A stretch of DNA of 64,000 nt from an uncultured Lachnospiraceae bacterium. GTDB lineage: Bacteria > Bacillota > Clostridia > Lachnospirales > Lachnospiraceae. The translations under genes and the position numbers were made by a program. The notes beneath the pieces were generated by a model. That model was not told where the DNA came from and did not search any database. It saw nothing but the letters and a program-made list of their open reading frames with translations. The stretch lies in NCBI GenBank assembly GCA_946414885.1, contig CAMKQH010000009.1, forward strand, positions 62,001-126,000, written 5' to 3'. Below, in pieces: positions 8,861 through 29,350 of the stretch (positions are counted from its first letter, which is position 1; each line of letters opens with the position of its first letter).

Positions 8861-8898
8861 GCCACGGGGACATGTCTAATGACACGTTTTCCGTGACC
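8861..8898 (-). repeat. Dispersed palindromic repeat, copy A (also a bidirectional terminator)
   Basis: Read on the minus strand this copy contains AAAACGTGTCATTAGACAT, then GTCCCCGTGGC, matching the three plus-strand copies at 12481, 12515 and 27416. The 38-bp unit is an imperfect palindrome whose outer arms GGCCACGG/CCGTGACC pair. It sits exactly between the convergent TraX and fucosidase genes and is followed by TCGTTTATTTT, so it can terminate transcription from TraX. Confidence 0.75.
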
Positions 8899-8908
8899 CT
8901 CGTTTATT

Positions 8909-10360
8909 TTAAAGTTGAATTTTCAGTACGCCAGGCATAACGGTGCTTCGTCTGTCGGGAAGATCAACGATGAGGACTCCGGACTGCTGGATGAAATTTA
9001 CAGGTCCGCTGCCAAGGAATTCCACGCTTTTCACCGTTTCTTCCGGCTTAAGGGAAGTGATGACGGCGGTCTTGTTGTGATCGGCCTTCATGACAAAGGC
9101 ATAGAGCACGTTGCCCTTGATGACGAAGCGGAAATCATCCTCATCCCACTTGACCTGATCCTCGCGGAAGCCGTCAATGATGACGTGGGCATGGCCTTCG
9201 CCGGAGACGCGGAAAGGCCTGGTCCCGTGAATGGCTTCGCCGTTGACGGCAAACCAGGCTGCGAGTTCGGAAAGAATATACTCAGCTTCCTCGTCGATGG
9301 ATCCGTCGGGACGCTGCAAAATATTGAGAAGGAGCGTGCCGTTCTTTGCGATGGAGTCGATCAAAATGTCGATAATATGGCGAGGCTTTTTATAAATGGC
9401 CTTCTTATCGTAGAACCAGCCGCCGATGCAGGTCTCAGACTGCCAGGGAACCGGTAAGATATCCGGAAGCTGGCTCCTTTCAATGTCAAGCGTGCCAACG
9501 GAATAGATCGCGGGATCGCGGTGCTTTTGCGTATAGACGGCCTGATTTGTTCCGTGGAGCTTCTCGGACACGTTGTAAAGGTGTGCAACTGCCTGTAAGC
9601 CATAGCGGTAAAGGTTGTGGTCGTCAGCGACCATATGGTTTTCCTCCTCAAAAGGCAGCCAGCTGTCGGAGTAGAGCAGGTCAGGCTGATAGTTGTCAAT
9701 GATCTCATACATGACCTTCAGCCAATACTCATGGAACTGGGGATTCTTTGTGAGCCAGATGCAGGGATCCTTACAATCCGGAGTCGTGACGTGCTCGTAA
9801 TTGTCGTGATAGAAATCGCGGTACGCGGGATCATTTCCGTCATAGGGTACGTCTTTATAAGGACCATAGGTGTCATGCCCCTTATTTGAACGCCACCACG
9901 CAAAGGACGCGCCGAGATGCTCCGTCATGCCAAAGGGTAAGCCATATTTCTTCGCGGCCGCCTTCCAAAGGCCGCAGATGTCCTTATGAGGACCAACGTC
10001 GACGGAATTGAAGCGGTTGAGCTTCGAAGCATAATTAAAAAAGTGATCATGATGTGAGGCCTGGGCCACGAAATAGCGTGCCCCGGCCTTATAATATTTC
10101 TCCATTAGCGCGTCCGGATCGAACTTCTCAGCCTTCCACAGCGCGCAAATATCCTTGTAACCAAATTTGGAAGGATGACCGTAAGTTCTAAGGTGATACT
10201 CATACTGCTCCGTGCCCTGAATATACATGTTGCGCGCGTACCAGTCGCCGCACATGGGCACGGACTGCGGCCCCCAGTGACTCCAGATGCCAAATTTCGC
10301 GTCCCGAAACCAGTCAGGACACTGGTGCGTTCTAAGAGATTCAAATGTGGGTTCAAACAT
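8909..10360 (-). CDS. Alpha-L-fucosidase, glycoside hydrolase family 29
   Basis: 483 residues, no signal peptide, so it acts in the cytoplasm on imported fucosylated oligosaccharides. GH29 marks: FGIWSHWGPQSVPMCGDWY near 23-41, ASHHDHF at 101-107, the probable nucleophile Asp at 232 in PDLLYSDSW, and the barrel end WFAVNGEAIHGTRPF. A C-terminal beta-sandwich follows. The start is an ATG with AGGAGG 6 nt upstream. It lies 13 nt downstream of an orphan hicB-like gene on the same strand, so the two are probably one transcript. The general acid/base residue varies within GH29 and was not assigned. Confidence 0.93.
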   Translation of the reverse strand: MFEPTFESLRTHQCPDWFRDAKFGIWSHWGPQSVPMCGDWYARNMYIQGTEQYEYHLRTYGHPSKFGYKDICALWKAEKFDPDALMEKYYKAGARYFVAQASHHDHFFNYASKLNRFNSVDVGPHKDICGLWKAAAKKYGLPFGMTEHLGASFAWWRSNKGHDTYGPYKDVPYDGNDPAYRDFYHDNYEHVTTPDCKDPCIWLTKNPQFHEYWLKVMYEIIDNYQPDLLYSDSWLPFEEENHMVADDHNLYRYGLQAVAHLYNVSEKLHGTNQAVYTQKHRDPAIYSVGTLDIERSQLPDILPVPWQSETCIGGWFYDKKAIYKKPRHIIDILIDSIAKNGTLLLNILQRPDGSIDEEAEYILSELAAWFAVNGEAIHGTRPFRVSGEGHAHVIIDGFREDQVKWDEDDFRFVIKGNVLYAFVMKADHNKTAVITSLKPEETVKSVEFLGSGPVNFIQQSGVLIVDLPDRRSTVMPGVLKIQL

Positions 10361-10373
10361 GATGATCCTCCTT

Positions 10374-10781: not shown

Positions 10782-10834
10782 TGGATGAATGACCTCCTTA
10801 TTGCAAACTAATGGGTTAAGTGAGAAAAAGCGGA

Positions 10835-11031: not shown

Positions 11032-11047
11032 CCAAACCTCCTTTTTT

Positions 11048-12480: not shown

Positions 12481-12511
12481 AAAACATGTCAGTAGACGTG
12501 TTCCCGTGGCA
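12481..12511 (+). repeat. Dispersed palindromic repeat, copy B
   Basis: Begins AAAACATGTCAGTAGACGTG and continues TTCCCGTGGCA. It differs from copy C at three positions, two of which are compensatory-looking (ACATGTC with GACGTGT), keeping the short inner palindrome. It stands in tandem with copy C at a 34-bp period. Confidence 0.75.
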
Positions 12512-12514
12512 GAG

Positions 12515-12545
12515 AAAACGTGTCAGTAGACACGTCCCCGTGGCA
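12515..12545 (+). repeat. Dispersed palindromic repeat, copy C
   Basis: Begins AAAACGTGTCAGTAGACACG and continues TCCCCGTGGCA, the apparent consensus of the family. GAGA precedes both B and C, so the tandem unit is ~34 bp. The array ends 16 bp before the -35 of the FAD oxidoreductase promoter. Confidence 0.8.
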
Positions 12546-12560
12546 CAAAAAGGGGGATAT

Positions 12561-12588
12561 TTGATTTTTGGGGAAATGGGTGTATAAT
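12561..12588 (+). promoter_or_regulatory. Promoter of the FAD oxidoreductase gene
   Basis: TTGATT (12561-12566), 16-bp spacer, perfect TATAAT (12583-12588). Because it covers the ATG at 12568, that start cannot be used and translation must begin downstream. Confidence 0.7.
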
Positions 12589-12648
12589 CAAGAAGGATTT
12601 ATGAGATCCGTTTGGCGGAAAATTATGAGACGTGGAGGGGAACAGAAG

Positions 12649-14307
12649 ATGAGTGAAATGAATGCGGAGAAGATCCCGGCAGGTTTGTCGGAGGCGGAGG
12701 TGAAGCTTTCCGTCTGTGAGCTGGGGGAGATTAAGCCGGATAAGGTGTTGGATTTTGACGTCGTGGTGGTTGGCGCGGGCGCAGCCGGGGTGCCGGCGGC
12801 CGGATGGGCTGCAGAGCTTGGCGCGAAGGTGGCGCTGCTTCAGAAGGAGGCAAACGTGGTGTCGCAAGGTAACTGCGGATCGGCCATCATTAAGTCGCGT
12901 TCCACGGAGGCGGGCATTGCAAAGTGGATCCATCATACGAACGGACTTTGCGACTGGCGCGCGGACGTAAAGCAGCTTCGTGCATATGCGGATCATTCCG
13001 AGGAAGCCATGATGTGGCTGTGGAACCGCGCGGGAATGACGACGGAGACGGAGTATGGCGACGGCAGCAAGGTGGACAGCAATACGGAAAGCGCAAAGCT
13101 CCTGAATGACGGTGACAAGCTCTGCGCATTTATGTGTACGAGCGGCGACTTTACGGGAACCTGGCGTGACCGTGAGAGCAGTTATGAATATGGCGATGAC
13201 CATTGTTATTTCTGGGCACCCTGGTTTGGACCGAAGCCCCTGAACGTGGGTAATGCACTTCGAAAGATCGTGGACAACGTGCAGGCAAAGTGCCCGAATC
13301 TGGAGACATTTTTCTCTATGCCCGCGGTACAACTCATAAAAGACGGCGAGCGGGTAACCGGCGTGATCGGCAAGGCTGCAGACGGCACGTATATCCGGTT
13401 TAACGCGGCGAAGGCCGTGATCCTGGCAACGGGTGATTACACGAATAATGCGGCAATGGTGGCACGCTGGTGTCCGGACATTGCGGAGTTTGACAAGAAG
13501 CAGTTTGGCAAGACGGGTGACGGTCACGTACTGGCGATCAGCGCCGGCGCGAAGATGGAGAACCTGGGCCACACGAAGATGATGCATGACTTTGACTCCG
13601 CGCTCATGTGGGAGGAGCCGTTCCTGTACCTGAACATGAAGGGGGAGCGCTTCACCAATGAGTATACGGGCTTTGTATACATGGGGAACGTGCTGAAGTT
13701 TCAGCCTTCCTACAAGGGTTCCATGCTGGATGCGGAGCATAAGGAGACTGGCTCGAAGGGCTGGTATTGCACGATCTATGATGATGACTACATGAACTGG
13801 CCCGCGGACGAGTTTGTCAGCGGAAAGGTGCCGCCCATGGTGATGCAGAAGTTCATTCCCGGCGCGGTGGAGAACCCGCAGGGCGTGTTCAAAAACCTGA
13901 TCGACCTGCACAGATGCGATACTTTGGAGGAGCTTGCAAAGGAGCTGGACCTTCCTTACGAGACGATGAAGGCATCCGTGGACCGCTACAATGAACTTTG
14001 CGACAAGGGATGCGATACGGACTTTGGCAAGCCGGCCAAGTACATGCACAAGATCGAGAAGGCGCCGTTCTGGGGCGCGCGCAAGCACATCCGCGTGTCA
14101 GCGGAGGTGTCCGGCGTTCTGGCCAATGAGAACGGGCAGGCACTGAATGCTGCCGGTGAGCCGATCCCGGGCCTGTACTGCGTGGGAAATCTTGGCGGAC
14201 CGTTCTATGGCGGCAATGATTATCCTTTCCATCAGACGGGTCTTTCCCTGGGAAGATGTTATACCTTTGGCATGATCGCCGCAAAGCATGCCTTGGGAAA
14301 GCTGTAA
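12649..14307 (+). CDS. FAD-dependent oxidoreductase, fumarate reductase/flavocytochrome c type
   Basis: 552 residues from ATG 12649, chosen for GGAGGGG upstream and because the promoter ends at 12588. The Rossmann FAD motif FDVVVVGAGAAGVPAAGWAA lies near residue 40-60. Further marks are GNCGSAIIKSR, AVILATGDYTNN, GDGHVLAISAGAKMENLG and the C-terminal FAD-binding FHQTGLSLGRCYTFGMIAAKHA. The fold is that of fumarate reductase, urocanate reductase and ketosteroid dehydrogenase flavoproteins. There is no signal peptide, FMN-binding domain or haem motif, so it is cytoplasmic and its electron donor must be separate. The substrate cannot be told from sequence. It is a single-gene unit with its own promoter and terminator. 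Confidence 0.85.
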   Translation: MSEMNAEKIPAGLSEAEVKLSVCELGEIKPDKVLDFDVVVVGAGAAGVPAAGWAAELGAKVALLQKEANVVSQGNCGSAIIKSRSTEAGIAKWIHHTNGLCDWRADVKQLRAYADHSEEAMMWLWNRAGMTTETEYGDGSKVDSNTESAKLLNDGDKLCAFMCTSGDFTGTWRDRESSYEYGDDHCYFWAPWFGPKPLNVGNALRKIVDNVQAKCPNLETFFSMPAVQLIKDGERVTGVIGKAADGTYIRFNAAKAVILATGDYTNNAAMVARWCPDIAEFDKKQFGKTGDGHVLAISAGAKMENLGHTKMMHDFDSALMWEEPFLYLNMKGERFTNEYTGFVYMGNVLKFQPSYKGSMLDAEHKETGSKGWYCTIYDDDYMNWPADEFVSGKVPPMVMQKFIPGAVENPQGVFKNLIDLHRCDTLEELAKELDLPYETMKASVDRYNELCDKGCDTDFGKPAKYMHKIEKAPFWGARKHIRVSAEVSGVLANENGQALNAAGEPIPGLYCVGNLGGPFYGGNDYPFHQTGLSLGRCYTFGMIAAKHALGKL

Positions 14308-14356
14308 GAAGCAAGTATTTACAAAAATTGCATGCGTAATGCGCAGACGCGTAAGG

Positions 14357-14388
14357 GCCGTGACAAACGTCACGGCTCCTTTTTTATT
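14357..14388 (+). terminator. Strong rho-independent terminator
   Basis: GCCGTGAC (14357-14364), loop AAAC, GTCACGGC (14369-14376), then TCCTTTTTTATTT. Confidence 0.92.
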
Positions 14389-14428
14389 TGGTGACGTATG
14401 ACCTCTGCCCTTTTTCGATAAGTGTTTC

Positions 14429-14456
14429 TATAATGGAACCATAAGGATGATGGTTC
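14429..14456 (+). promoter_or_regulatory. -10 element and leader hairpin before the membrane protein operon
   Basis: A perfect TATAAT (14429-14434) has no good -35 partner. It is followed directly by GAACCAT (14436-14442) and ATGGTTC (14450-14456), a perfect 7-bp stem that would lie at the 5' end of the transcript or act as an operator. Confidence 0.45.
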
Positions 14457-14501
14457 TGTCTTGGGCCGATCTTAGGCCTGCTGAAAGAAAGAGGTGTGAT
14501 T

Positions 14502-16193
14502 ATGGAAGAGAAGAATAAGAAAGTGTTTTCAACAATCCTATTGGCGGTTGGAGTGCTTTTCATCGTAGTCTCCGGAGGCATTTTTGTTTCCCAGACTTGG
14601 AAGTATCTGCCGGCGGGGGTAAAGTTTCTGGCCTTGCTGACGGTGACGGGCGGCATCTTCGGCGGATCGCTCTACACGGAAAAGCTTTCGCTGGAAAAGG
14701 CATCCACGGCGCTGTATTATCTGGGCGTTTGCTTTTCAGGTTTTACGACGGCGCTGCTTATGAGTCTTTTGGATGTTACTGCACGGCTCGGAGGCTTCGC
14801 GGTATTATCCGTCATGTCAGTTCCCGTTGTGATCAGATTCCTGCGGGAAAAGAGCCTGATCGACGTCATCATTCAAATTTTCCTGTGCGACGGCATGGTG
14901 CTGTGTACGGCAGGTGAAGAATCCGTCTTGTTTGGAAATGAGTGGACCATGATCTGTGCGGCTACTTTGGTTATGGGACTTGCAGGCTTTGTTTATTACT
15001 GTAAGCGTGAGTTTACCGAGACAAACGCGATCCAGACCGTGGCGCTGTTGGCATTTGGCGTTCATGCAATCCCTTGCTACCTGTCGACGTTCATCAATCT
15101 GTTTGTTGCGGATTCCTTCCTCTTTGGCCTGTTCCCGGTCCTTTTGCTTGTGGCAGCGGTATCGGTGGTTTACGTGGCATGTGACAGACCCATTTTGTTA
15201 AGAATCCTGCAGAGCTGCGCATTATTATACGGTGCCTTTGCAACTACCCAGAGCATTTATCTCCACGTATTTGAAAGGGCCGGTTATCCGGAATTTGCCA
15301 CGGCTACGTTCGCGGCGTTTGTGATCGGACTGATCCTGATGGCATTCCTTGAGCGCACGGAGCTTTTCGTGGCATGCGGCGCCATGACGTTATTGTTATC
15401 TTTTGCTCAGGTGCTGGGCTACGTGATCATTAGCGACGAAATGAGGAATGGGATGTTGTGTCACCCTTACGGCTTTGGCGTCTGCATCGCCCTGGTGGCG
15501 TGGAAGCTGCTCCGTGACCCGGACGTAAGCTGGGGAAAGCTCAGTAAGGTTATGGCTGTCCTTGCTGCCCTGAACTTGAATGGCATTCTTTCTTATCTCA
15601 CGAGAGATTACGGTTGGCAATACGGCATATTCTTTATTTTGTCCCTTTCGGCATTGCTGGCAACCTTCGTTTTGGAAGCGTTCAATCGTGAGGTCGACGT
15701 TCAGATGGCTCTGAAGAGCATGTCCATATTCTTTGCATTCCTTGCACTTTGGATCCACCCCGTAGTTTCCACGAAGATCTATTCGCAGGCTGGGCACGAG
15801 CTGCTTGCAGACTTCGGAACGGAGTATTTCGTCATTCTTGCAGGAGTTGCTATTGTTCTTTTGGGAATTATTTGGTATGATAGGTTCAAGGGAATTCGTT
15901 CCCTCCAGTTTATTGGAACTTGTCTGCTGCTGGCGATACTGGTCATTCACAATCTGGCCGTACCCGCATTGCCGAACGTGATGTTCCTGGGAGTTGTGAC
16001 GCTGGTTATGCTGATCGTTGCCACACTGCTGAAAAAGAAGGATTACGCCATGGCGTCGGCTGCCACTCTGATCCTGGTGGCTCTGTACCTTACCAGAGAT
16101 CTTTGGATGAGCATCGCATGGTGGGTATACCTCTTCGTGGCAGGCGTTGGGCTTGTGATCTTTGCGATCAAGAAGGAAAAGGCTGAGAAGTAA
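14502..16193 (+). CDS. Large polytopic membrane protein (DUF2157/SCO7613-like)
   Basis: 563 residues from ATG 14502 with AAAGAGG 7 nt upstream (the in-frame GTG at 14496 touches the RBS). A short charged N-terminus (EEKNKKVFS) is followed by roughly 15 hydrophobic segments to the end and a KKEKAEK tail, with no sizeable soluble domain. The opening pattern LLAVGVLFIVVSGGIFVSQTW, then FLALLTVTGGIFGGSLY, resembles clostridial DUF2157/SCO7613-type membrane proteins of unknown role. Its stop is 1 nt before the histidine kinase start, so it is likely co-expressed with, and perhaps sensed or regulated by, that two-component system. Confidence 0.7.
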   Translation: MEEKNKKVFSTILLAVGVLFIVVSGGIFVSQTWKYLPAGVKFLALLTVTGGIFGGSLYTEKLSLEKASTALYYLGVCFSGFTTALLMSLLDVTARLGGFAVLSVMSVPVVIRFLREKSLIDVIIQIFLCDGMVLCTAGEESVLFGNEWTMICAATLVMGLAGFVYYCKREFTETNAIQTVALLAFGVHAIPCYLSTFINLFVADSFLFGLFPVLLLVAAVSVVYVACDRPILLRILQSCALLYGAFATTQSIYLHVFERAGYPEFATATFAAFVIGLILMAFLERTELFVACGAMTLLLSFAQVLGYVIISDEMRNGMLCHPYGFGVCIALVAWKLLRDPDVSWGKLSKVMAVLAALNLNGILSYLTRDYGWQYGIFFILSLSALLATFVLEAFNREVDVQMALKSMSIFFAFLALWIHPVVSTKIYSQAGHELLADFGTEYFVILAGVAIVLLGIIWYDRFKGIRSLQFIGTCLLLAILVIHNLAVPALPNVMFLGVVTLVMLIVATLLKKKDYAMASAATLILVALYLTRDLWMSIAWWVYLFVAGVGLVIFAIKKEKAEK

Positions 16194-16194
16194 A

Positions 16195-17466
16195 ATGCAA
16201 TTGGTACTCACTTTTATATACATAGCCGTGATCGGAGCAGTGCTGTTTTGTATGGCAGCGCTGCTCTTTCGAGGAGATGGAAGCGCCGGCAGCTGGACGT
16301 ATTTTACGTGTCAGGGCACGGTGGTTTTATGGTGTGCGTCCCAAATCTTGCAAATGATGGCAAAAACCAGGGGAGAACTGACGGCGGCGTTTCTTATCGG
16401 AAACGTGGGCATTTGTTTTGTTGGCTCCACCTGGTTTTATTTTACCATGCTTTACTCGGGAAGAAAGCTGAAAGGTCTGGTGAAGGTGGTCCCGGCGGTG
16501 GTTTCGGCGTTCTTTTACCTGAGCGTTCTGACGAATGAGCTGCATCATTTGTATTATCGGGATTTTTCTTTGGAGCACGTGATCCACGGACCGCTGTTCT
16601 ACGCGAACGTGACGTTTACGTATTTCTTCGCACTGACGGGTGCGGTGATCCTGTACGTAAAGATGGGACCGAAGCATCCGCTGGCCCGGAAGCTTGTGGT
16701 GGCATCCGTTCTGGTGCCGGTCGCGTTAAACGCCCTGTATCTTGTAGGTTTTGTGGCACCGTCCTTTGACATCACGCCGCTGGGATTCGCGATCTCGGTA
16801 TTCCTTGTGATGATGGCGGCATTTAAATATCGTTTTATGAATTTGAGGAAAGAACTGGCGATTACGAACGAGAAGCTTCTTTTGGAGCAGGAGAGAAACC
16901 GGATCGCGCAGCAGGTGCATGATACGGCGGGACATACGCTGACCATGATCCAGTCCTACATGAAGCTGGCGGAGATCTCTGCCGGAAAGGAAAACTTCGA
17001 CGAGGTCAAGGGGTATCTGACCGAGGCCAGACAACTGACGGGCCAGGGTATCAAGGAGCTCCGGGAATCCATCAACATGCTTCGCGAGGAGGCGGAGTAT
17101 GAACTGCTCACGCAGGGCGTAATGCAGCTGGCAAACCAGATGAAGGAGATTCCTGTGGAGGTGACCGTTCGCGGCGAGGACGGAAAGCAGTATTCCCACC
17201 TGTCCAAGACTGTGTACGACACGGTGAGGGAGAGCATGACCAACACTCTGAAATATGCAGAGGCGTCGAAGATGGACGTGGTCATCCGGTTTACGAAGAA
17301 TGCCGTGGAGCTGATGATTGCGGATGACGGCAAGGGATGCGAAAACATTCAGGACAACAACGGCCTTCGCGGAATCCGGGAGAGGGTTCAGAAGGCGGGC
17401 GGAACGGTGAGCTTTATCTCTTCGCCCGGGGAAGGATTTTTGACCAGAGTGAAATTGCCGCTTTAG
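16195..17466 (+). CDS. Sensor histidine kinase, NarL-partner (HisKA_3) type
   Basis: 423 residues from ATG 16195. About seven transmembrane helices occupy residues 1-210 (7TM histidine-kinase-like sensor). The dimerisation/phosphoacceptor segment is NRIAQQVHDTAGHTLTMIQS with H242. The HATPase domain shows KYAEASKMDVV, IADDGKGCE and GLRGIRERVQKAGGTV. It should phosphorylate the response regulator encoded next. ATG follows the previous stop by one base, so translational coupling is expected. The signal is unknown; absence of an extracellular domain suggests membrane or cell-envelope sensing. Confidence 0.93.
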   Translation: MQLVLTFIYIAVIGAVLFCMAALLFRGDGSAGSWTYFTCQGTVVLWCASQILQMMAKTRGELTAAFLIGNVGICFVGSTWFYFTMLYSGRKLKGLVKVVPAVVSAFFYLSVLTNELHHLYYRDFSLEHVIHGPLFYANVTFTYFFALTGAVILYVKMGPKHPLARKLVVASVLVPVALNALYLVGFVAPSFDITPLGFAISVFLVMMAAFKYRFMNLRKELAITNEKLLLEQERNRIAQQVHDTAGHTLTMIQSYMKLAEISAGKENFDEVKGYLTEARQLTGQGIKELRESINMLREEAEYELLTQGVMQLANQMKEIPVEVTVRGEDGKQYSHLSKTVYDTVRESMTNTLKYAEASKMDVVIRFTKNAVELMIADDGKGCENIQDNNGLRGIRERVQKAGGTVSFISSPGEGFLTRVKLPL

Positions 17467-17520
17467 GTGCCCTAAAGACACCGGAAAACGATATGTTTAG
17501 AAATATGTGGGGAGAATGGC

Positions 17521-18177: not shown

Positions 18178-18196
18178 TCTGTTGGGAGGTGGCGCT

Positions 18197-18454
18197 ATGT
18201 TTGGTTTGTTTGGCGGAGTGAAGAAGAATTCTGAACTGGAGCATCTGATCGAGCGCATGGAGAATAACATGGCGAACAACTATAAAGATGCCGCCCAGGA
18301 GTATCTTGTGGAGTTTGAAGCGAAGTTTAAGGAACTGTCTGAGAATGGCGGCTTAAACGAGAAACAAAAAGCACATTACGAATCCCTTCTGGATTCTTAC
18401 AAGATCAGGATGAAGGGATTTACGCATAAGGATCAAAAGCCCTATTGGACCTAA
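18197..18454 (+). CDS. Small hypothetical cytoplasmic protein
   Basis: 85 residues from ATG 18197 (GGGAGGTGG upstream). The sequence FGLFGGVKKNSELEHLIERM continues as a charged, helix-rich protein with NYKDAAQEYLVEFEAKFKEL and a closing KDQKPYWT. No transmembrane helix or known domain. It follows the response regulator by 19 nt, inside the operon. Function unknown. Confidence 0.7.
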   Translation: MFGLFGGVKKNSELEHLIERMENNMANNYKDAAQEYLVEFEAKFKELSENGGLNEKQKAHYESLLDSYKIRMKGFTHKDQKPYWT

Positions 18455-18483
18455 AGCAATATTTGAAAATAAGGAGAACGAGA

Positions 18484-20099: not shown

Positions 20100-20156
20100 G
20101 ACGTCTGATCCGGAATGGTAGGGTTTTTGGCGCATGAGGCGCCGCGGAGGATAGTA

Positions 20157-21035
20157 ATGGAAATTGTACGGATGATACTGCCGGTCCTGGTGGGAGCCAT
20201 TATCGGTTGTTTCACGAATTATATAGCGATCAAGATGTTGTTTCGCCCTCAGAAGGAGAAGAGGATCGGAAAGTGGCACGTGCCCTTTACGCCCGGCATC
20301 ATTCCGAAGAACCAGAAAAGGCTTGCCGCGGCGATCGGTGATGCCGTTGGCGGTCATCTGTTTAACATGGATGCCATCAAGGATAGCTTTCAAAAAAACG
20401 GCACGAAAGAAAAACTGGTAAAGAAGGTCGCGACGGCCCTTTATGAGAGTGAGGCCTGCATCGGGGATTTCTTTTCTTCGGATGAGAATCATGACGAACT
20501 GATCGGGAAATTCAGCGGCATCATGGCGGGGGCCGTGGCGGATAAGGTGCGCCAGATCGAGTTTAAGCCCATCGTCGCAGAGATCGGCAAGGACGCAATG
20601 AGTGATCTCTTGAGCCACAAGATGATCGCCATGCTGATCAATGAGGAGCGACAGGATGCCATCTACGATCGCATTGCACAGGCGATTCACAAGTATCTGG
20701 AGGAGAACGGCGAGGAGATGGTGCGCAGCGCGATTCTTCAGAACGTTAAAGAGATAGAGCATAAGCCGATCAAGGAGATCGTGCAGGCGGGCACCAGCCA
20801 GGAGGGTCTGGAAAACGTGGCCAATTACCTGGTGGACCGTGCGGCAGACCGCTTTGGCGCTGCGATCCTGCAGGCTGTGGACGTAAGCTCCGTGGTCCGG
20901 GAGCGCGTGGAAAGCATGGACGTGGCGGAGATGGAGAAACTTACGCTGTCCGTGTGCAGCAAGGAGCTTTCAGCGGTAGTTTATCTGGGTGCCGTGATCG
21001 GTGCCGTGATCGGTGTCATCAATATTTTCACCTAA
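20157..21035 (+). CDS. DUF445-family membrane protein
   Basis: 292 residues from ATG 20157 (CGGAGG upstream). An N-terminal helix (MILPVLVGAIIGCFTNYIAI) leads to the family signature KMLFRPQKEKRIGKWHVPF and TPGIIPKNQKRLAAAIGDAVG, then a long helical soluble segment and a C-terminal membrane helix (VVYLGAVIGAVIGVINIF). Both ends lie in the membrane. The family (YheB-like in Bacillus) is of unknown function. The 3' end contains a short nucleotide duplication (GTGCCGTGATCG twice) encoding GAVIGAVIG. Confidence 0.88.
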   Translation: MEIVRMILPVLVGAIIGCFTNYIAIKMLFRPQKEKRIGKWHVPFTPGIIPKNQKRLAAAIGDAVGGHLFNMDAIKDSFQKNGTKEKLVKKVATALYESEACIGDFFSSDENHDELIGKFSGIMAGAVADKVRQIEFKPIVAEIGKDAMSDLLSHKMIAMLINEERQDAIYDRIAQAIHKYLEENGEEMVRSAILQNVKEIEHKPIKEIVQAGTSQEGLENVANYLVDRAADRFGAAILQAVDVSSVVRERVESMDVAEMEKLTLSVCSKELSAVVYLGAVIGAVIGVINIFT

Positions 21036-21086
21036 ATGGCTTTTAAGACTTTCATTGGATACTGACAAAAGAAAAGAGGAATCAAA

Positions 21087-21926
21087 ATGCCTACGACGCA
21101 CGCACATTACGTACACGGGGAAGAGGTACGAAAGAAAATAAATCCCGAAGCCCGGGAGATCATTGACAAATATCCGGAGCTGTTTCATTTTGGAGTACAC
21201 GGACCGGATCTGCTCTTCTACTATGACGCGCTGAAAAAGAATCACGTAAACCAGACGGGGGGAAAGATCCATGACCTTCCCGGAAGGGATTTCTTTGAGA
21301 ATGCGGCGAAGGTCCTGCAAGGACTTTCTGAGGAAGAGAGCGGCGATTATCGGCCGTCCCTGTCCTATATATACGGTTTCTTATGTCATTTTTCTTTAGA
21401 TCTTTACTGCCATGGATACGTGCAGGAAAAGATGGATGCCAGCGGCATCTCCCATGCGGAGATCGAGGCGGAGATGGACCGCGAACTCCTTGTGCGGGAA
21501 GGCCTGGATCCCATCCGGACAAAGCTGACGGGGCATCTTGTTCCCTCCGGAAAGAATGCGCGCGTGATCAGCAGGTTTTATGAGGAGATCTCCCAGGAAG
21601 AGGTCTTCAAGGCCATGAAGGACATGGTGAAGTTCCTGGATTATCTAGTGCTTCCGCAGAAGGTAAAGCGTTCCGTGATCCTGGGAGTGCTGAAGGCCGT
21701 CGGACAATATGACGGTAAGCACGGGCTGATCATCAATTATGAGAAGAATCAGGAGTGTGCGGACAGCACGGAGCGGCTCCTTGCGTTGATGGAGGAAGCG
21801 GTGGATTTTGCGGCAGGGCTGATCGATGCGTTCCCTAAGATGGGCGATGAATACCGATATAACTTCCTTTCGATCGATCCTTCGTCGGGTGAGGTTTATC
21901 CGGCCAAGACAAAAGCGGAAAAATAA
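21087..21926 (+). CDS. Zinc-dependent phospholipase C-like protein
   Basis: 279 residues, no signal peptide. Likely Zn ligands: THAHYVHGEEV, HFGVHGPDLLFYY, FLCHFSLDLYCHGYV and downstream acidic residues. The family is the S1-P1/zinc-phospholipase-C fold commonly annotated 'zinc dependent phospholipase C' in Firmicutes. The lack of a secretion signal argues against a toxin-like role and suggests intracellular phosphodiesterase action. The MFS gene starts 16 nt downstream, so this begins the transporter/polymerase run. Confidence 0.85.
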   Translation: MPTTHAHYVHGEEVRKKINPEAREIIDKYPELFHFGVHGPDLLFYYDALKKNHVNQTGGKIHDLPGRDFFENAAKVLQGLSEEESGDYRPSLSYIYGFLCHFSLDLYCHGYVQEKMDASGISHAEIEAEMDRELLVREGLDPIRTKLTGHLVPSGKNARVISRFYEEISQEEVFKAMKDMVKFLDYLVLPQKVKRSVILGVLKAVGQYDGKHGLIINYEKNQECADSTERLLALMEEAVDFAAGLIDAFPKMGDEYRYNFLSIDPSSGEVYPAKTKAEK

Positions 21927-21942
21927 GGAGAGGCTACGTGGA

Positions 21943-23202
21943 ATGAAGCAGAAAATAACTAAGCAGGAACGCAACTGGATCTTGTATGACGTGGGTAATT
22001 CCGCATTTACCATGCTGGCCACGACGATCATTCCCATATATTTTAATTACATTGCCGGGCAGCAGGGCGTCAGCTCCGTGGATTATCAGGCGTACTGGGG
22101 CTACACGGCATCCATCGCAACGCTGATCGTGGCAATCCTGGGCCCCATCGTGGGAACCTTTACGGATAATAAAAATTTCAAGAAGCCTGTTTTTCTGGCG
22201 TCTCTGGCAATTGGCTCCATCGGATGCGTTTCCCTTGGATTTGCGGGACACTGGCTGGCTTTTTTGATACTGTTTATCATCTCTAAGATTGGTTATTCCT
22301 CGAGCTTGATCTTTTATGACTCGATGTTGCCGGACGTAACGACGAAGGAGCGCATGGACAAGATCTCGACTGCAGGATATGCCTGGGGCTATATTGGCAG
22401 CTGTGTTCCCTTCATCCTTTGTCTTGTCGTCGTGCTTGGAAAGGACAAGGTCGGACTGAGCATGGAGCTGGCAATGACGTTGTCCTTTGTGATCACGGCA
22501 GTTTGGTGGGTTGGCATGACCGTGCCGCTCCTTCGGACGTATCAGCAAAAGTACTACGTGGAATGCCGGGAGCATGCGGTGGCGGAAACCTTTAAGCGTC
22601 TGGGAAGCACGCTTGCAAATGCACGAAAGCACAGCAAGATCTTCTGGTTCCTGATCGCATTTTTCTTTTACATTGACGGCGTGTATACCATCATAGACAT
22701 GGCGACGGCTTATGGAACGGCACTGGGGCTTAGCAGTTCCGGTCTGCTCCTGGCACTTTTGGTGACGCAGATCGTGGCGTTCCCCTGCGCCATTATCTTT
22801 GGCAGGCTGGCCCAGAAATTCGAGGCAGAGAGATTGATCACGGTATGCATCGCGGCGTATCTTGGCATCGTGATCTTTGCCGTATTCCTGACGAACATTG
22901 TGGAGTTCTGGATCTTGGCCGTTCTTGTGGGCATGTTCCAGGGCGGCATACAGGCACTTTCCAGATCTTATTTTACAAAGATCATCCCGCCGGAGCAGTC
23001 GGGAGAGTTCTTTGGGATTTATGACATCTGCGGCAAGGGTGCGGCATTCCTCGGAACGACGCTGGTGGGCGTTGCAACGCAGCTGACGGGCAGCAATAAC
23101 AAGGGTATCAGCGTGCTAACCGTTTTATTTGTTTTGGGACTGCTCTTCTTTAGAATAGCGGCAGCCTCTGCCAAAAAGGATGAAGGGAATGGAAAAGCCT
23201 GA
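21943..23202 (+). CDS. UMF1-family MFS transporter (Atg22-like)
   Basis: 419 residues from ATG 21943 (AAGGAGAGG upstream). The opening ERNWILYDVGNSAFTMLATT is the hallmark of UMF1/Atg22-type permeases; about 12 membrane helices follow, with GGIQALSRSYFTKIIPPEQS as the second half-signature. Substrate unknown; yeast Atg22 exports amino acids. The end overlaps the YolD-like gene by 14 nt. Confidence 0.9.
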   Translation: MKQKITKQERNWILYDVGNSAFTMLATTIIPIYFNYIAGQQGVSSVDYQAYWGYTASIATLIVAILGPIVGTFTDNKNFKKPVFLASLAIGSIGCVSLGFAGHWLAFLILFIISKIGYSSSLIFYDSMLPDVTTKERMDKISTAGYAWGYIGSCVPFILCLVVVLGKDKVGLSMELAMTLSFVITAVWWVGMTVPLLRTYQQKYYVECREHAVAETFKRLGSTLANARKHSKIFWFLIAFFFYIDGVYTIIDMATAYGTALGLSSSGLLLALLVTQIVAFPCAIIFGRLAQKFEAERLITVCIAAYLGIVIFAVFLTNIVEFWILAVLVGMFQGGIQALSRSYFTKIIPPEQSGEFFGIYDICGKGAAFLGTTLVGVATQLTGSNNKGISVLTVLFVLGLLFFRIAAASAKKDEGNGKA

Positions 23203-23602
23203 GGGAAAATATGCGGACATTCTAGACCTCCCGCACCATCAGTCATCGAGAAGGCCACACATGCCACTCTCGGAGCGCGCGGCGCAGTTTATGCCCTTTG
23301 CGGCATTAACCGGGTATGATGCGGCGATCGCAGAGGCAGGGCGACAGACGGAAGAGTTCCGGGAGATGGACGAGAGTGAAAAGGCCTTGCTGGATGAGAC
23401 GCTCCGGGTGCTTGAGGAGCGGAAGGGGGAACGGCCGGAGGTCAAGACCACGTATTTTGTGCCGGATCCCGTAAAGGACGGCGGCGCGTACGTGGAGGTT
23501 ACGGGGAATTTTGTTAAGGTGGACCGCGCAAAGCGCGTAATGCTGTTGGAAGGCGGAACGCGGATTCCGCTGGATGAGATCACGCGGATTTTGATCCAGT
23601 GA
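23189..23602 (+). CDS. YolD-like protein
   Basis: 137 residues from ATG 23189; AAAAGG lies 9 nt upstream, and an in-frame ATG at 23180 lacks spacing. The YolD-like marks are PLSERAAQFMPFAALTGYD and the C-terminal small beta domain (GNFVKVDRAKRVMLLEGG, TRIPLDEITRI). YolD-like proteins are regularly found next to UvrX/YqjW Y-family polymerases on mobile elements and chromosomes of Firmicutes; here such a polymerase lies 274 nt downstream. It may tune access of the polymerase to the clamp; that is inference. Confidence 0.85.
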   Translation: MEKPEGKYADILDLPHHQSSRRPHMPLSERAAQFMPFAALTGYDAAIAEAGRQTEEFREMDESEKALLDETLRVLEERKGERPEVKTTYFVPDPVKDGGAYVEVTGNFVKVDRAKRVMLLEGGTRIPLDEITRILIQ

Positions 23603-23627
23603 GCTTGAGAAAAGAGAAGGTGATGGC

Positions 23628-23873
23628 ATGGAAGAGACGACAAACGCAGCTGAGGAGACGTTGGAAGTAACGCCGGAAGGGACGAAGGACGTAAAGTCGG
23701 AAGTACTCGAAAAGGTAAAGGGGTTCTTGATCGAGAACAAGGACGCACTGATGCTGGCAGGGCAGATCGCGATCGTTGCCATGATCTGCGTCGCCGGAAT
23801 CCGGAATGACATGGAGCCTCAGAATTGTTGCTGCAGAAGATGCAGGAAGAAGAGAAAGAAAAAGCGGAAGTAA
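23628..23873 (+). CDS. Small single-pass membrane protein with Cys/Lys-rich tail
   Basis: 81 residues, RBS GAAGGTG. An acidic N-terminus (EETTNAAEETLEVTPEG) is followed by one hydrophobic helix (~41-60, ALMLAGQIAIVAMICVAG) and a short tail NCCCRRCRKKRKKKRK. Four Cys in five positions followed by a basic run could bind metal or nucleic acid. The stop is 2 nt before the polymerase start. I know no family for it; the strong RBS and tight packing between YolD-like and polymerase genes support reality. Confidence 0.6.
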   Translation: MEETTNAAEETLEVTPEGTKDVKSEVLEKVKGFLIENKDALMLAGQIAIVAMICVAGIRNDMEPQNCCCRRCRKKRKKKRK

Positions 23874-23875
23874 TC

Positions 23876-25369
23876 ATGTCGGAGAGAGCTTACGTAGCGA
23901 TTGACTTAAAATCATTTTATGCATCCGTGGAATGCGTGGAACGAGGGCTGGATCCGCTGACCACAAATCTTGTGGTGGCGGATGAAAGTAGGACGGAGAA
24001 GACCATTTGTCTGGCGGTTTCGCCTTCTTTGAAGGCGTACGGGATACCCGGTCGCGCCAGACTTTTTGAAGTGGTTCAAAAAGTCCGGGAAGTCAACAGG
24101 AGCAGAAAGCGCGGCGAGCCAGAGCTTACGTATCTGGTGGCGAAGCCGCGGATGGCATTGTACCTGAAATACAGTACGGATATCTATCAGATTTACTTGA
24201 AATATATAGCGCCGGAGGACATTCACGTCTATTCCATCGACGAAGTGTTCATGGACGTGACGGCATACCTTAAGACATATCGCATGACGGCGCAGGAGCT
24301 GGCGAGGAAGATGGTCCGGGACGTGTATGACCAAACGGGGATCACGGCGACGGCCGGGATCGGAACAAACTTGTATCTCTGTAAGGTTGCCATGGACATT
24401 GTAGCAAAGCACGCGCCGGCAGATGAAAACGGCGTCCGCATGGCCACTTTGGATGAACGCAGTTACCGCGAACTTCTTTGGGATCATAAGCCGCTCACGG
24501 ATTTTTGGCGGGTCGGCAGGGGAATCTCCCGGAGACTGGAGGAAGTTGGGCTGTTTACCATGGGTGACGTGGCCAGATGCAGCGTCGGCAAGGAGACGGA
24601 GTTTTACAATGAGGATCTCTTGTACCGGATGTTTGGCATCAATGCGGAGCTTTTGATCGATCACGCCTGGGGCTGGGAGCCAACGCGGATCTCGGATATA
24701 AAGAGTTATAAGCCGGAGAACAATTCCGTCAGTTCAGGACAGGTCTTATCCCGCCCATATCCTTATGACCAGGCGCGGATCATCGTGCGGGAGATGGCGG
24801 AGGTGCTTTCGCTGGATCTTGCCGCGAAGAACCTGGTGACGGATCAGATGGTGCTGACCATAAGCTATGACGCGGACAATCTCAAAAATGCCGCGAAAGG
24901 AAAGGAATATCACGGGGAAACGTCCACGGATTTTTATGGACGGCAGGTGCCAAAGCATGCGCATGGATCGGAGAACCTGGAGGAATTCACGGTTTCGACA
25001 AGGGAGATCGTGGATGCGGTCCTGGCGATCTATGACCGCGTGGTGGATCCGGCGCTTTCGGTGCGAAGGATCGGCGTGGCCGCGAACCACGTGATGGAGG
25101 AGAAGGAGGCTGCAAGCCAGGAAAAATATGAGCAGCTGGAGCTCTTTAAGGATTATGGGGCTTCCTTGGCAGATCCTAGGCAAGCGGCCAAGACTGCTGA
25201 AGAGATCGCAAAAGAAGAAGAGCGAAAGCAACGCGAGAAAAGGATGCAGCAGGCCGTTCTCGGGATACAAAAGCGATATGGAAAAAACGCCGTCCTAAAA
25301 GGGACGGATTTTGAAGAAGGAGCTACCAAACGGGAGCGAAACAACCAGATCGGCGGGCACAAGGCGTAA
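23876..25369 (+). CDS. Y-family translesion DNA polymerase (UvrX/UmuC-like)
   Basis: 497 residues from ATG 23876, RBS GGAAG. Catalytic carboxylates: AIDLKSFYASVE at 7-18 and VYSIDEVFMDVT. Thumb/HhH: DFWRVGRGISRRLEEVGLF. The little-finger domain extends to ~430. QLELF, just before residue ~430, is a canonical beta-clamp-binding motif. A basic, coiled-coil-like tail (EEIAKEEERKQREKRMQQAV) follows, longer than in DinB. It should bypass DNA lesions in an error-prone way. No convincing SOS box was found at the operon start. Confidence 0.93.
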   Translation: MSERAYVAIDLKSFYASVECVERGLDPLTTNLVVADESRTEKTICLAVSPSLKAYGIPGRARLFEVVQKVREVNRSRKRGEPELTYLVAKPRMALYLKYSTDIYQIYLKYIAPEDIHVYSIDEVFMDVTAYLKTYRMTAQELARKMVRDVYDQTGITATAGIGTNLYLCKVAMDIVAKHAPADENGVRMATLDERSYRELLWDHKPLTDFWRVGRGISRRLEEVGLFTMGDVARCSVGKETEFYNEDLLYRMFGINAELLIDHAWGWEPTRISDIKSYKPENNSVSSGQVLSRPYPYDQARIIVREMAEVLSLDLAAKNLVTDQMVLTISYDADNLKNAAKGKEYHGETSTDFYGRQVPKHAHGSENLEEFTVSTREIVDAVLAIYDRVVDPALSVRRIGVAANHVMEEKEAASQEKYEQLELFKDYGASLADPRQAAKTAEEIAKEEERKQREKRMQQAVLGIQKRYGKNAVLKGTDFEEGATKRERNNQIGGHKA

Positions 25370-25420
25370 GGCGCATAGTCCCGCCCCGGAAACAGAGAAT
25401 AGGTTTAGGAGGGTTATGAC

Positions 25421-26479
25421 ATGCAAAAAAATGACAGTATTTCAATACCAGTGATCTTGAAAGTGGGGAAAGGATCCCTGGGATGTCTTGGACCGACGCT
25501 GATGGAGGAGGATCTCTCAGAAGTCGTGATCTTTTTTGGAAACGGATTGATCGATCTGTTTGGCACGAAGGTCATGGAGTCCATGCGTGCGGCTGGGGTT
25601 ACCGTTTTGGAGTATCAGGAACTGGACACGGTGGCCATTGAGGACATCATTCCCCTGGCATTTGCGATTCCCAACAAGGCGAAGGCGGTGGTTTCCATTG
25701 GCGGCGGCAAGGTGATCGATGCCGGTAAATATGCGGCATTCCTTCGCGGCATGCCATTTATCAGCGTGCCGACGAGCAGTTCGAGCGACGGTTTTTCCAG
25801 TGCCAGCGCGTCCCTGTTGGTTGGAGGCAAGAGAAATTCCGTGCCTGCAAAGCTGGCCTATGGGATCGTGGTGGACACGGAGGTTATCCGCACGGCGCCC
25901 GTGAAGTTCATTTATTCCGGCATCGGCGACATGGTGGCGAAGATCACGTCCCTGTATGACTGGGTATATGAGGCGCAGCACGGTGCGTCGGTACTGAACG
26001 ATTTTGCCGTGATGGTGGCAAAGAAGGCCGTGAACAGCTTCGTGCGCACGCCCTTCGAGAGCATTCAGGATGAGGTGTTCCTGAAGGAGCTGCTGGATTC
26101 CCTTGCCATGAGCGGCATTGCGAATGAGATCGCGGGCAGCAGCGCGCCCACCAGCGGAAGCGAGCATCTGATCTCCCATGCGCTGGATAAGTTTTTGGAA
26201 GTGCCCCAGCTCCATGGCGTGCAGGTGGGCATTGCAACCTATATCATGGCGAAGGTGCAGGATCACCGCCACGTCCGCGTCAGCAAGATCTTTGCGGATA
26301 CGGGCTTCTGGGATTACGTGGAAACTCTCGGCATGAGAAAAGAGGATTTCATTAAGGCGATCGACATGGCGCCGTCCATCAAGCCTCACCGTCATACCTA
26401 TCTGCATGAGGAAAAGTATCGTGAAGAGGCGAAGAGACTTGTCATGGAGGATGAGGTCCTGAAAAGGGTACTGGTATAA
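25421..26479 (+). CDS. sn-glycerol-1-phosphate dehydrogenase-like (iron/zinc alcohol dehydrogenase fold)
   Basis: 352 residues, RBS TAGGAGGG. NAD-binding VVSIGGGKVIDAGKYAA, then PTSSSSDGFSSASASL, and metal ligands in a GSEHLISHAL segment and LHGVQVGIA plus an upstream Asp (SGIGDMVAK). These motifs match glycerol-1-phosphate dehydrogenase (AraM/EgsA) more than 3-dehydroquinate synthase or glycerol dehydrogenase. It would convert dihydroxyacetone phosphate to sn-glycerol-1-phosphate. The GH3 gene follows 36 nt downstream; no archaeal-type lipid gene is adjacent. Exact substrate is uncertain. Confidence 0.8.
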   Translation: MQKNDSISIPVILKVGKGSLGCLGPTLMEEDLSEVVIFFGNGLIDLFGTKVMESMRAAGVTVLEYQELDTVAIEDIIPLAFAIPNKAKAVVSIGGGKVIDAGKYAAFLRGMPFISVPTSSSSDGFSSASASLLVGGKRNSVPAKLAYGIVVDTEVIRTAPVKFIYSGIGDMVAKITSLYDWVYEAQHGASVLNDFAVMVAKKAVNSFVRTPFESIQDEVFLKELLDSLAMSGIANEIAGSSAPTSGSEHLISHALDKFLEVPQLHGVQVGIATYIMAKVQDHRHVRVSKIFADTGFWDYVETLGMRKEDFIKAIDMAPSIKPHRHTYLHEEKYREEAKRLVMEDEVLKRVLV

Positions 26480-26515
26480 GGACTGGATGAGTTTATTTTG
26501 CGGGAGAAGAATTGC

Positions 26516-29350
26516 ATGAGTACAATTTTGGATTGGAAAAAATATCAGGAGAAGGCGACGCAGGCCATCGCGGAGGGCGTGGTCCTTTTGGAGAATAAGA
26601 ATGGGGCGCTGCCCCTTGACGCGGCAAAACAGATTGCCGTATTCGGAAGGATCCAGCTCGATTATTACAAGAGCGGAACGGGTTCCGGAGGCATGGTGAA
26701 CGTGTCGCACGTGATCAATATCCCGGAGGGACTGGAGCTTCGCGGGGCAAAGCTTGATCAGGATCTCAAGAAGGTTTATGAGGATTGGACGGCGGAGCAT
26801 CCCTTTGACAAGGGCGCCAGCTGGGGCGGAGAGCCTTGGTGCCAGGAAGAGATGCCTCTTTCCGAGGAGCTTGTCAAAGCATCCGCTGAGCGCTGTGAGA
26901 CGGCGCTGATCGTCATTGGACGTACGGCGGGTGAGGAGATGGACAATTCTTACAAGGAGGGCTCGTACCTGCTTACGGCCGGCGAAAAGAACGTGCTGAG
27001 GATCACTAGAAAATATTTCAAAAAGACGGTGGTGCTTCTGAACGTGGCATCCATCATTGACATGGGATTTGTGGACGAATTTGCGCCGGATGCCGTGCTG
27101 TATGCATGGCAGGGGGGCATGATGGGCGGCCTTGGAACGGCTGACGTGCTGCTTGGAAACACCTCGCCCTCCGGAAAGCTGACGGACGTGATCGCGCATA
27201 AGATCGAGGATTATCCTTCCCATGCGAATTTCGGCGATCAGGACAGGGATTATTATTGCGAGGACGTCTATGTTGGATACCGCTATTTTGAGACCTTTGC
27301 GAAGGATCAAGTGCGTTATCCCTTTGGATATGGGCTGTCTTATACGGAATTTGCGTACGGAGGCCTGCGGCTGGAGTGCGGAGACGCATTTGCAGCCGAT
27401 GACGGCGAGGACGCAAAAACGTGTCAGAAAACACGTCCCCGTGACCCAAAGATCGTGGTGGAAGTAAAGAACGTGGGGAAGGTTGCGGGAAAGGAGATCG
27501 TGCAGGCGTATTGCGAGGCTCCGCAGGGGAAGCTGGGGAAGCCGGCGAGAGTGCTGTGCGGCTTTGCAAAGACGAAGCTTTTGGCGCCCGGGGAGAGCGA
27601 GCAGGTTAGCATTGAGATCGACCTTGAGAGCATGGCATCCTTTGACGATACGGGAGTGACGGGGCATCCCCATGCCTTTGTCTTGGAGGCCGGGGAATAC
27701 CGGTTCCACGTCGGAAAGAACGTTAGGGAGACCATGGCACCGGTTGTTGCCAATTTGGATCAGACGGTCGTGGTTTTAGAGGCACAGTATGCGCTTGCAC
27801 CCGTGCTCCCCTTTGAGAGAATGGTCAATAAGAACGGCGTACCCGCATTTGAAGCCGCTCCCGTTGCAAAAACGTGGGAGAGCAAGGGCGAAAACGGTAT
27901 TCCGGCAGGCATCTATCGCGAGATGGAGGCGGAGAGGCGTCTTGCCGGCATGCCTAAGGAGATCGCATATACGGGCGATCTGGGAATAAAGCTTGCGGAC
28001 GTGGCGCTTGGAAAGAAGACCCTGGAGGAGTTTATTGCGCAGCTTTCGGATGAGGATTTGTCCTGCATCATCCGAGGCGAGGGCATGGGAAGTCCCAAGG
28101 TAACGGCAGGCACGGCAGCAGCCTTTGGAGGCGTTTCGCCGCGCCTTGCAGAGTTTGGAGTTCCTTGCGCGTGCTGCAGTGACGGTCCTTCCGGCATGCG
28201 CCTTGACTGCGGGACGAAGGCATTCAGCCTGCCTGGCGGAACGATGCTTGCATGTACTTGGAACCGCGAGCTTTTGACGGAGCTGTTTACGTTTACGGGT
28301 CTGGAGATGACGGCAAACCACGTGGAATGTCTGCTGGGACCGGGCATGAATATCCACAGGCATCCCCTGAACGGGCGTAATTTTGAGTATTTCTCAGAGG
28401 ATCCGTATCTTACCGGTGAGGTAGCCGCGGCGCAGCTTAAGGGCTTGCATGACGCAGGCGTTACGGGAACCATCAAGCATTTTTGTGGAAACAATCAGGA
28501 GACTAGAAGACATTTCCTTGACAGCGTGATCTCCGAGAGAGCGCTTCGGGAAATTTACCTTAGAGGCTTTGAAATTGCCGTAAAGAAAGGCGGTGCCTAT
28601 ACCATTATGACCACTTACGGCAGCGTAAACGGTCTTTGGACGGCGGGAAGCTATGATCTTACGACCACGATCCTTCGAAAGGAATGGGGCTTCGAGGGCC
28701 TCGCCATGACGGACTGGTGGGCAAATATCAACCGTCGCGGGCAGGCGCCGGACAAGCGGGATTTTGCAGCCATGGCCATGGCGCAAAATGACGTGTACAT
28801 GGTTTGCTCGGACGGGGAAAAGCATGATGACAACACGCTGGAATCCCTGGGAAAGGGAGAGGTGAAGCGCGCGGAGCTGCAAAGAAACGCGGCGAACGTG
28901 CTGGGAGTGGTGCTTCGCTCCAATGCCATGAAGAGACTCCTTGGCACGGCGCAGACCGTAGAGATCACGGGCCGGGAGGAGGAAGGCACCACAAGTCAGG
29001 AAGAGGTGCCTTGCTATCTGTTAGGCAATGATCTGACAGTGGATCTGAGCGGCGTAAAGACTGCCCGTGATGCAAGCTACAGTTTTGTGCTGGATCTGGA
29101 AAAACCGGGACTTTACCGCTTTACGCTGACGGCTAGCTCGGAGGCGGGCGAACTGGCACAGATTCCCGTGACGGTGTTCAGCATGGGAACGGCATCCGGA
29201 ACCTTTACCTGGAATGGAACCGGAGGAAAACCCGTCAGCTTTTCGGGCAGCACGTACATGTTCTCACGCTATACAACGATCCGTCTGTACTTTGCACAGG
29301 GAGGACTGGATCTTACGGACGTAAGGTTTGAGAGAGTGATGGAGGAATAG
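26516..29350 (+). CDS. Domain-permuted family 3 beta-glucosidase
   Basis: 944 residues from ATG 26516 (GGGAGA upstream; a TTG at 26498 gives six more codons). Domain order is reversed relative to most GH3: the alpha/beta sandwich comes first (~10-280, GSGGMVNVSHVINIPEGL, YPFGYGLSYTEF), then a fibronectin-III-like domain (~311-420), then the TIM barrel (~480-780) with DGPSGMR (D557), KHF (654-656) and the probable nucleophile D733 in GLAMTDWW, then a ~100-aa C-terminal beta domain. This order is known from Butyrivibrio and Ruminococcus albus enzymes. No signal peptide, so cytoplasmic hydrolysis of beta-glucosides. Residues 301-310 are encoded by a dispersed repeat. Confidence 0.92.
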   Translation: MSTILDWKKYQEKATQAIAEGVVLLENKNGALPLDAAKQIAVFGRIQLDYYKSGTGSGGMVNVSHVINIPEGLELRGAKLDQDLKKVYEDWTAEHPFDKGASWGGEPWCQEEMPLSEELVKASAERCETALIVIGRTAGEEMDNSYKEGSYLLTAGEKNVLRITRKYFKKTVVLLNVASIIDMGFVDEFAPDAVLYAWQGGMMGGLGTADVLLGNTSPSGKLTDVIAHKIEDYPSHANFGDQDRDYYCEDVYVGYRYFETFAKDQVRYPFGYGLSYTEFAYGGLRLECGDAFAADDGEDAKTCQKTRPRDPKIVVEVKNVGKVAGKEIVQAYCEAPQGKLGKPARVLCGFAKTKLLAPGESEQVSIEIDLESMASFDDTGVTGHPHAFVLEAGEYRFHVGKNVRETMAPVVANLDQTVVVLEAQYALAPVLPFERMVNKNGVPAFEAAPVAKTWESKGENGIPAGIYREMEAERRLAGMPKEIAYTGDLGIKLADVALGKKTLEEFIAQLSDEDLSCIIRGEGMGSPKVTAGTAAAFGGVSPRLAEFGVPCACCSDGPSGMRLDCGTKAFSLPGGTMLACTWNRELLTELFTFTGLEMTANHVECLLGPGMNIHRHPLNGRNFEYFSEDPYLTGEVAAAQLKGLHDAGVTGTIKHFCGNNQETRRHFLDSVISERALREIYLRGFEIAVKKGGAYTIMTTYGSVNGLWTAGSYDLTTTILRKEWGFEGLAMTDWWANINRRGQAPDKRDFAAMAMAQNDVYMVCSDGEKHDDNTLESLGKGEVKRAELQRNAANVLGVVLRSNAMKRLLGTAQTVEITGREEEGTTSQEEVPCYLLGNDLTVDLSGVKTARDASYSFVLDLEKPGLYRFTLTASSEAGELAQIPVTVFSMGTASGTFTWNGTGGKPVSFSGSTYMFSRYTTIRLYFAQGGLDLTDVRFERVMEE
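27416..27446 (+). repeat. Dispersed palindromic repeat, copy D, inside the GH3 reading frame
   Basis: Begins AAAACGTGTCAGAAAACACG and continues TCCCCGTGACC, matching copies A-C. It encodes KTCQKTRPRD (residues 301-310) in the linker between the alpha/beta sandwich and the fibronectin-III-like domain, without breaking the frame. Confidence 0.8.

Follow-up and report, generated by a model that had tools for sequence, protein, structure and literature searches.

Four copies of a palindromic repeat in the window

The window, that is the whole stretch of 64,000 nucleotides that was analysed, corresponds to C9:62001-126000 of a Lachnospiraceae source genome (G000), a 3.80-Mb draft in 51 contigs that is 97% complete. 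A 27-mer repeat matches at 8861-8887 on the minus strand and at 12484-12510, 12518-12544 and 27419-27445 on the plus strand. All copies (4/4) of the dispersed palindrome described in the initial annotation were thereby recovered, with 0 mismatches to the consensus of the sequence given there and 0 matches expected from 100 shuffles. An Rfam scan of the window at gathering scores found no known RNA.

Copy 1, extended to a quasi-palindrome (8859-8899, minus strand), lies between two convergent ORFs, a TraX-like gene (7790-8836) and an alpha-L-fucosidase gene (8909-10360). The initial annotation placed one copy in a terminator position; a simple terminator scan (8700-9050) does not report copy 1 as a terminator. 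Its counterpart in the sister genome G011 could not be mapped within the G011 DNA compared. Copies 2 and 3 (12482-12511 and 12516-12545, both plus strand) are located upstream of a gene for an FAD-binding protein, and their coordinates confirm the annotated tandem pair with a 34-bp period; G011 has one unit in place of the two.

Copy 4 (27416-27446, plus strand) resides within a GH3 glycosidase ORF of 950 aa (26498-29350, plus strand). In agreement with the annotated position in a protein linker, it is in frame, covers approximately residues 306-316 and is situated between the GH3_C (28-282) and Fn3-like (333-408) domains. The C-terminal domain of this enzyme precedes the N-terminal one (order GH3_C, Fn3-like, GH3_N). 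G011, which is 89% identical to the window from 12509 to 27900, carries an eroded copy of the repeat at the linker site, and G018 and G046 have a different linker with no copy. Copies fixed at orthologous positions in distant relatives, with no empty sites, had been named as evidence against mobility; so far this is not what is seen, as G018 and G046 lack the copy at 27416, the only site that is comparable with more distant relatives.

The repeat family in the source genome and its relatives

The repeat is dispersed and abundant in three close relatives, where it takes several forms, including bounded pairs that enclose a core. In the whole of G000, the repeat pattern yields 104 matches at ≤3 mismatches (reversed control: 0), compared with the count of fewer than ten that the initial annotation would have taken as evidence against a mobile family. 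Among the 100 matches listed of these 104, 74 places can be distinguished, comprising 50 single copies, 12 full palindromes, 7 inverted or mixed places and 5 tandem arrays, three of which have a 34-bp step; these classes are defined by the pattern at ≤3 mismatches, and chance may account for a few of the places with 3 mismatches. Composites (see below) make up seven of the 50 'single' places, their second arm being too decayed for the pattern (C2, C5, C8:72255, C11:56482, C18:41419, C19:66185 and C31). Inverted doublets hence account for 7 of the 74 places plus these 7 with a decayed second arm, and single copies still form the majority among the matches listed. Single REPs are regarded as remnants of doublets by the authors who described REPINs in Pseudomonas SBW25 (PMC3116915). 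The single copies found here, including those in the window, are probably mostly remnants of larger units as well.

The consensus, drawn from 129 distinct stretches of which most belong to G000 and G011, reads AAAACGTGTC-AGTA-GACACGTCCCCGTGAC. The repeat consists of a 7-bp stem, a 4-nt loop and a CCCCGTGAC tail, which lengthens the stem where the left side is CGGGG. Position counts over the same stretches reveal no conserved unpaired GTAG or CGTC tag, and the CGT preceding CCCC is part of the stem rather than an unpaired tag. No clear strand bias relative to genes was seen with a rough ORF caller, and one strict pattern gave 0 matches in viral contigs.

Only three of the 138 genus genomes are rich in the repeat, namely G000, G011 and G155 with 84, 134 and 61 matches at ≤2 mismatches, respectively. 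All three are drafts and close relatives, with 85-99% identity in the flanks compared. Any match at this threshold occurs in 10 of the 138 genomes; the seven besides the rich three have 1-2 each, and the reversed control gives 1 match in a similar number of genomes.

A composite unit enclosing a conserved core

Inverted repeat pairs 244-301 bp apart in G000 enclose a conserved core of ~180 nt, the fold of which is far more stable than that of shuffled sequences (z -16.5). The resulting units measure ~270-330 bp, have inverted termini and contain no gene. Nine of the 11 G000 composites were compared, as in the other two a repeat had decayed beyond what the matcher could recognise. Their mean pairwise identity is 89% for either repeat, 68% and 61% for the two spacers, and 54% and 56% for the sequence outside, which gives 54% when shuffled. 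Repeat, spacer, core, spacer and repeat behave as one unit, which in the nine composites is delimited by its terminal inverted repeats, homology ending at their outer edge. We infer insertion from these homology boundaries, as the comparison yielded no site that is cleanly empty of a whole composite. No target-site duplication was seen by eye in the nine composites, and no parent transposon with the same ends was noticed in the loci read, the transposase profile search having covered Y1 only.

G000 contains at least 19 core matches. By our own reading, 13 of those scored have clean or decayed repeats on their flanks, and the other 6 are plain. Seven G000 cores (C2, C5, C6, C8:72304, C10, C14 and C18) have a length of 236-238 nt and are thus ~57 nt longer; where read, the insert consists of two small hairpins, a repeat within the repeat. 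Two further inverted pairs of ~1.2 kb, one with a weak, partial end, were considered as an autonomous element between inverted repeats and rejected because they enclose ordinary-looking ORFs, which on reading suggest an aldo-keto reductase and a zinc-ribbon protein.

Distribution and fold of the core

A covariance model search detects the core in 86 of the 138 genus genomes and, across the order, in 47 of 392 genomes and 22 of 173 genera, all 47 belonging to the family of the window, Lachnospiraceae; these counts are lower bounds, with up to 19 candidates scored per genome in the genus and 6 in the order. Elsewhere in Lachnospiraceae the core occurs without the repeat of the window, and the window itself has no core at E ≤ 0.1. 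Among named genomes, the core pattern is found in 10 stretches, five in Acetatifactor sp. RUI221 and five in Lachnospiraceae bacterium RGIG7929, labelled as from water-buffalo rumen.

For the analysis of flanks and fold, a hand selection was made from 132 core matches, dropping other-strand echoes, duplicates and cut matches; 91 entered the arm test and 41 alignment A6. Another alignment (A1) omits 3 of 32 extracted cores, those with the ~57-nt insert. In the MAFFT alignment of the 41 diverse cores, both partners change in 29 of the 33 pairs, and 88.6% of cells pair, compared with 70.2% after shuffling. The covariation score is 0.493 (0.165 shuffled, with 0 of 500 shuffles as high); the structure was derived from the same 41-core alignment, a bias in its favour, but sliding the partner columns by 1-3 lowers the score to at most 0.131. 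Two features hardly vary, namely the AGC-GNRA-GCG mini-hairpin, which adjoins a three-way junction, and the pair of strands CGYCGGYACTTAG and CTTA-GTACCGCTRCG. We regard the core as a candidate structured RNA element, with a predicted fold that is supported by covariation. In Rfam searches of 7 and 16 core loci at permissive thresholds, no core reaches a gathering score; the permissive matches are to miRNA-precursor models (L298, E 1.8e-7; L303, E 0.0099), both far below gathering, and are taken for an effect of the long hairpin.

For the 91 cores, pairing between the two 60-nt flanks of one locus is stronger than between flanks of swapped loci (mean -29.8 vs. -17.6 kcal/mol), also without the repeat-flanked cores (-26.3 vs. 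-16.5 kcal/mol). The own flank is the best partner of all in only 22 of 91 cores (20 of 78 without the repeat-flanked ones). Counting in 25 nt of each core end, perfect arms reach 37, 35, 32 and 31 nt (L254, L214, L244 and L290, respectively). Long, locus-specific (private) core arms occur, but not universally.

The surroundings of the cores vary. In other species, some cores have a different inverted flanking motif, approximately GGTAATTGCGAAACTC (L246, L247, L250, L255 and L310), and the core of L201 (1474-1654) has another repeat, GGCACGTTTGTGCCACCGGGGACGGTTCT, in tandem on its flanks, a layout like that of the window repeat. Eleven loci contain two cores, which diverge in 10 and point in the same direction in one (L310). 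The diverging pairs have their 5' ends facing each other at distances of 18 bp to 1.2 kb (L243, L249, L256, L258, L268, L291, L296, L297, L300 and L303). An autonomous element between paired cores was also considered and rejected; five loci hold ordinary-looking ORFs or none, as judged by eye. Several cores, in sense orientation, immediately precede a likely Shine-Dalgarno sequence with a start codon (L189:8381-8561, L213:1425-1573, L209:1500-1676, L221:1500-1679 and L197:1471-1653). As judged by reading the sequence, the core of L213 is placed between atpA-like and atpG-like genes and that of L189 before a purF-like start.

Orthologous sites and likeness of the arms

Orthologous sites exist in different forms, described here as differences between genomes with no direction assigned; arms can be more alike within a locus than between loci, and an interior can be inverted. 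At one site, a repeat-core-repeat in G000 faces a single repeat in G011, a net difference of 304 bp with CAC common to the ends and flanks of 94% and 88% identity. At another, a 41-bp pair in G000 corresponds to a palindrome in G011 that is perfect (net difference 32 nt, with GACA at the ends), and a perfect pair in G011 coincides with a G000 pair that has a decayed left arm.

Orthologues were found for 14 of 18 G000 core loci in the G011 and G155 DNA compared. These include one clear inversion, one likely and two partial ones, the rest being direct or too short. At L263/L207, 168 nt of the interior are 99% identical in inverted orientation, whereas the flanks are direct (94% and 92%). The interior of L038/L228 is 81% identical when inverted and 67% when direct, and the interiors of L007 and L040 are partly inverted. 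The quasi-palindromic core gives ~67-74% identity in the wrong orientation, so that the value of 99% is clear and that of 81% less so. Furthermore, G011 is without an inner part of the core at L050/L230 and at L189/L146, where this part amounts to 132 nt, and without most of the composite at L268/L219, and the ~57-nt two-hairpin insert of G000 is missing from the orthologue at L263/L207 and L266/L274.

For pairs <100 bp apart, the two arms of a locus differ by 1.40 mismatches per 27 nt and arms from different loci by 3.36 (n = 10; a value this low in 1 of 20000 permutations). For core-bearing pairs the values are 2.54 and 3.80 (n = 13; 13 of 20000). The permutation sets contain orthologous loci of the three genomes, which makes the loci less than fully independent. 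No significant homogenisation is seen in the four pairs spaced 100-220 bp apart (2.75 vs. 3.58; 2509 of 20000), three of which have a truncated core. Mirrored variants are present in several palindromes. In individual pairs the arms match poorly, e.g., with 7 mismatches in L095.

Proposed origin and remodelling of the family

We lean towards reading the repeat as a lineage-specific, apparently non-autonomous REPIN/BIME-like family that is remodelled by hairpin template switching and deletion. Template switching creates and repairs perfect stems in one step (PMC8794818), and homogenised arms and spacer inversion have been described (PMC8604942). Replication template switching at hairpins would homogenise the arms and flip the interiors, and hairpin-directed deletion would strip away one arm or the core. 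The orthologous sites suggest corrected arms, inverted spacers and deletions, the marks expected of these two processes. The initial annotation had proposed a REP/MITE-like mobile palindrome, perhaps mobilised by a RAYT-type transposase; the dispersed, high-copy family and the inverted pairs with homology ending at the repeat are in line with the former, whereas the RAYT part is unsupported.

This part bears on the idea that the repeats are classical REPINs, doublets spread by a RAYT (a single-copy Y1 transposase) that has since been lost or escaped detection. The inverted doublets and probable-remnant singles do resemble published REPINs (PMC3116915), and RAYT-sized single Y1 genes of 246-262 aa are present in the relatives G046, G150 and G181 (L285, L284 and L283, respectively). 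Yet these three genomes have 0 repeat matches, and the repeat is without a GTAG tag. PF01797 was searched in G000, in 146 genomes including G000 and in seven chosen relatives; it has 0 matches in G000 (97% complete) and G155 (98%), and the only match in G011 is partial (query 35-121 of 121, in a 122-aa frame) and, on its contig, ~5.1 kb away from the closest repeat found. A Y1 gene flanked by the palindrome, as the initial annotation had suggested looking for, was found in none of the three rich genomes. We consider a classical REPIN unlikely. Alternatively, the palindrome could be the terminal inverted repeat of a MITE moved by a DDE transposase, as the composites end in inverted termini where homology stops. 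The two ~1.2-kb pairs with their aldo-keto-reductase-like and zinc-ribbon-like ORFs speak against such an element, and reading the nine composites by eye showed no target-site duplication. We consider this origin distinctly improbable.

Immobile, sequence-specific functional hairpins under selection, such as terminators or mRNA stabilisers, would be in keeping with the T-run of ≥5 within 22 nt on one strand at 8 of 12 full palindromes (a count with no background control) and with the few non-inverted intergenic copies between divergent genes (3/35 in G000 and 4/24 in G011, from a rough ORF caller and with no expectation computed). Against this, a terminator under selection would not require 27 nt to be conserved in sequence, the repeat also forms tandem arrays and sits within a gene, and relatives lack some copies at orthologous sites. 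Selection on function as the whole explanation is very hard to credit. Within a family remodelled by template switching, some full palindromes followed by T-runs might nevertheless act as terminators.

A further proposal, possible but doubtful, concerns the core, which might be an undescribed multi-copy Lachnospiraceae element that nucleates template switching. It would comprise a three-way-junction hairpin that carries the GNRA mini-hairpin, with CGYCGGYACTTAG / CTTAGTACCGCTRCG as conserved internal strands, and through its own fold any flank would be copied into perfect arms, long and specific to the locus. The flank copied in one clade would have been the REP-like repeat of the window, and the resulting repeat-core-repeat might have become the dispersing unit. 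If true, a repeat family would have been born from a hairpin duplicating its neighbourhood in inverse, without a dedicated transposase.

Comparison with known systems

No earlier description of the repeat or the core in Lachnospiraceae was recognised in the literature searched, with most subscription papers outside its coverage. The two join subjects usually studied apart, REP-like repeats and structured elements. The core, covarying across the family and with no Rfam match at gathering, offers transcript studies and genetics in Lachnospiraceae a concrete new target. Moreover, three close genomes hold the same sites in different forms, and the making, flipping and loss of palindromes can thus be read site by site.

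With REPINs and BIMEs, the family shares high-copy, short, mostly intergenic palindromes, inverted doublets, probable-remnant singles and lineage specificity (PMC3116915). It departs from them in two features, neither a GTAG/CGTC tag nor a repeat-flanked RAYT having been found, and it differs further in that some doublets enclose a structured core of ~180 nt, in its mirrored arm variants and in interior inversion. The GTAG and CGTC REP superfamilies are similar in size, 4-nt loop, dimers and short stem (7 bp here, 8-9 bp in CGTC families), but have the unpaired tag that is missing here; the REP families of that study are from other phyla, 'Firmicutes' and 'Clostridi' occurring 0 times in its main text (PMC3733652). 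MITEs with long terminal inverted repeats resemble the gene-free composites of ~270-330 bp with their inverted termini. Among the differences, the composites and loci read by eye showed neither target-site duplication nor parent transposon, and the core has different, sometimes locus-specific, outer arms in other species. The template-switch (quasipalindrome) hairpins are alike in that perfect stems are made or corrected in one step; there, this is a general mutation process (PMC8794818), whereas here it would be concentrated on one dispersed family.
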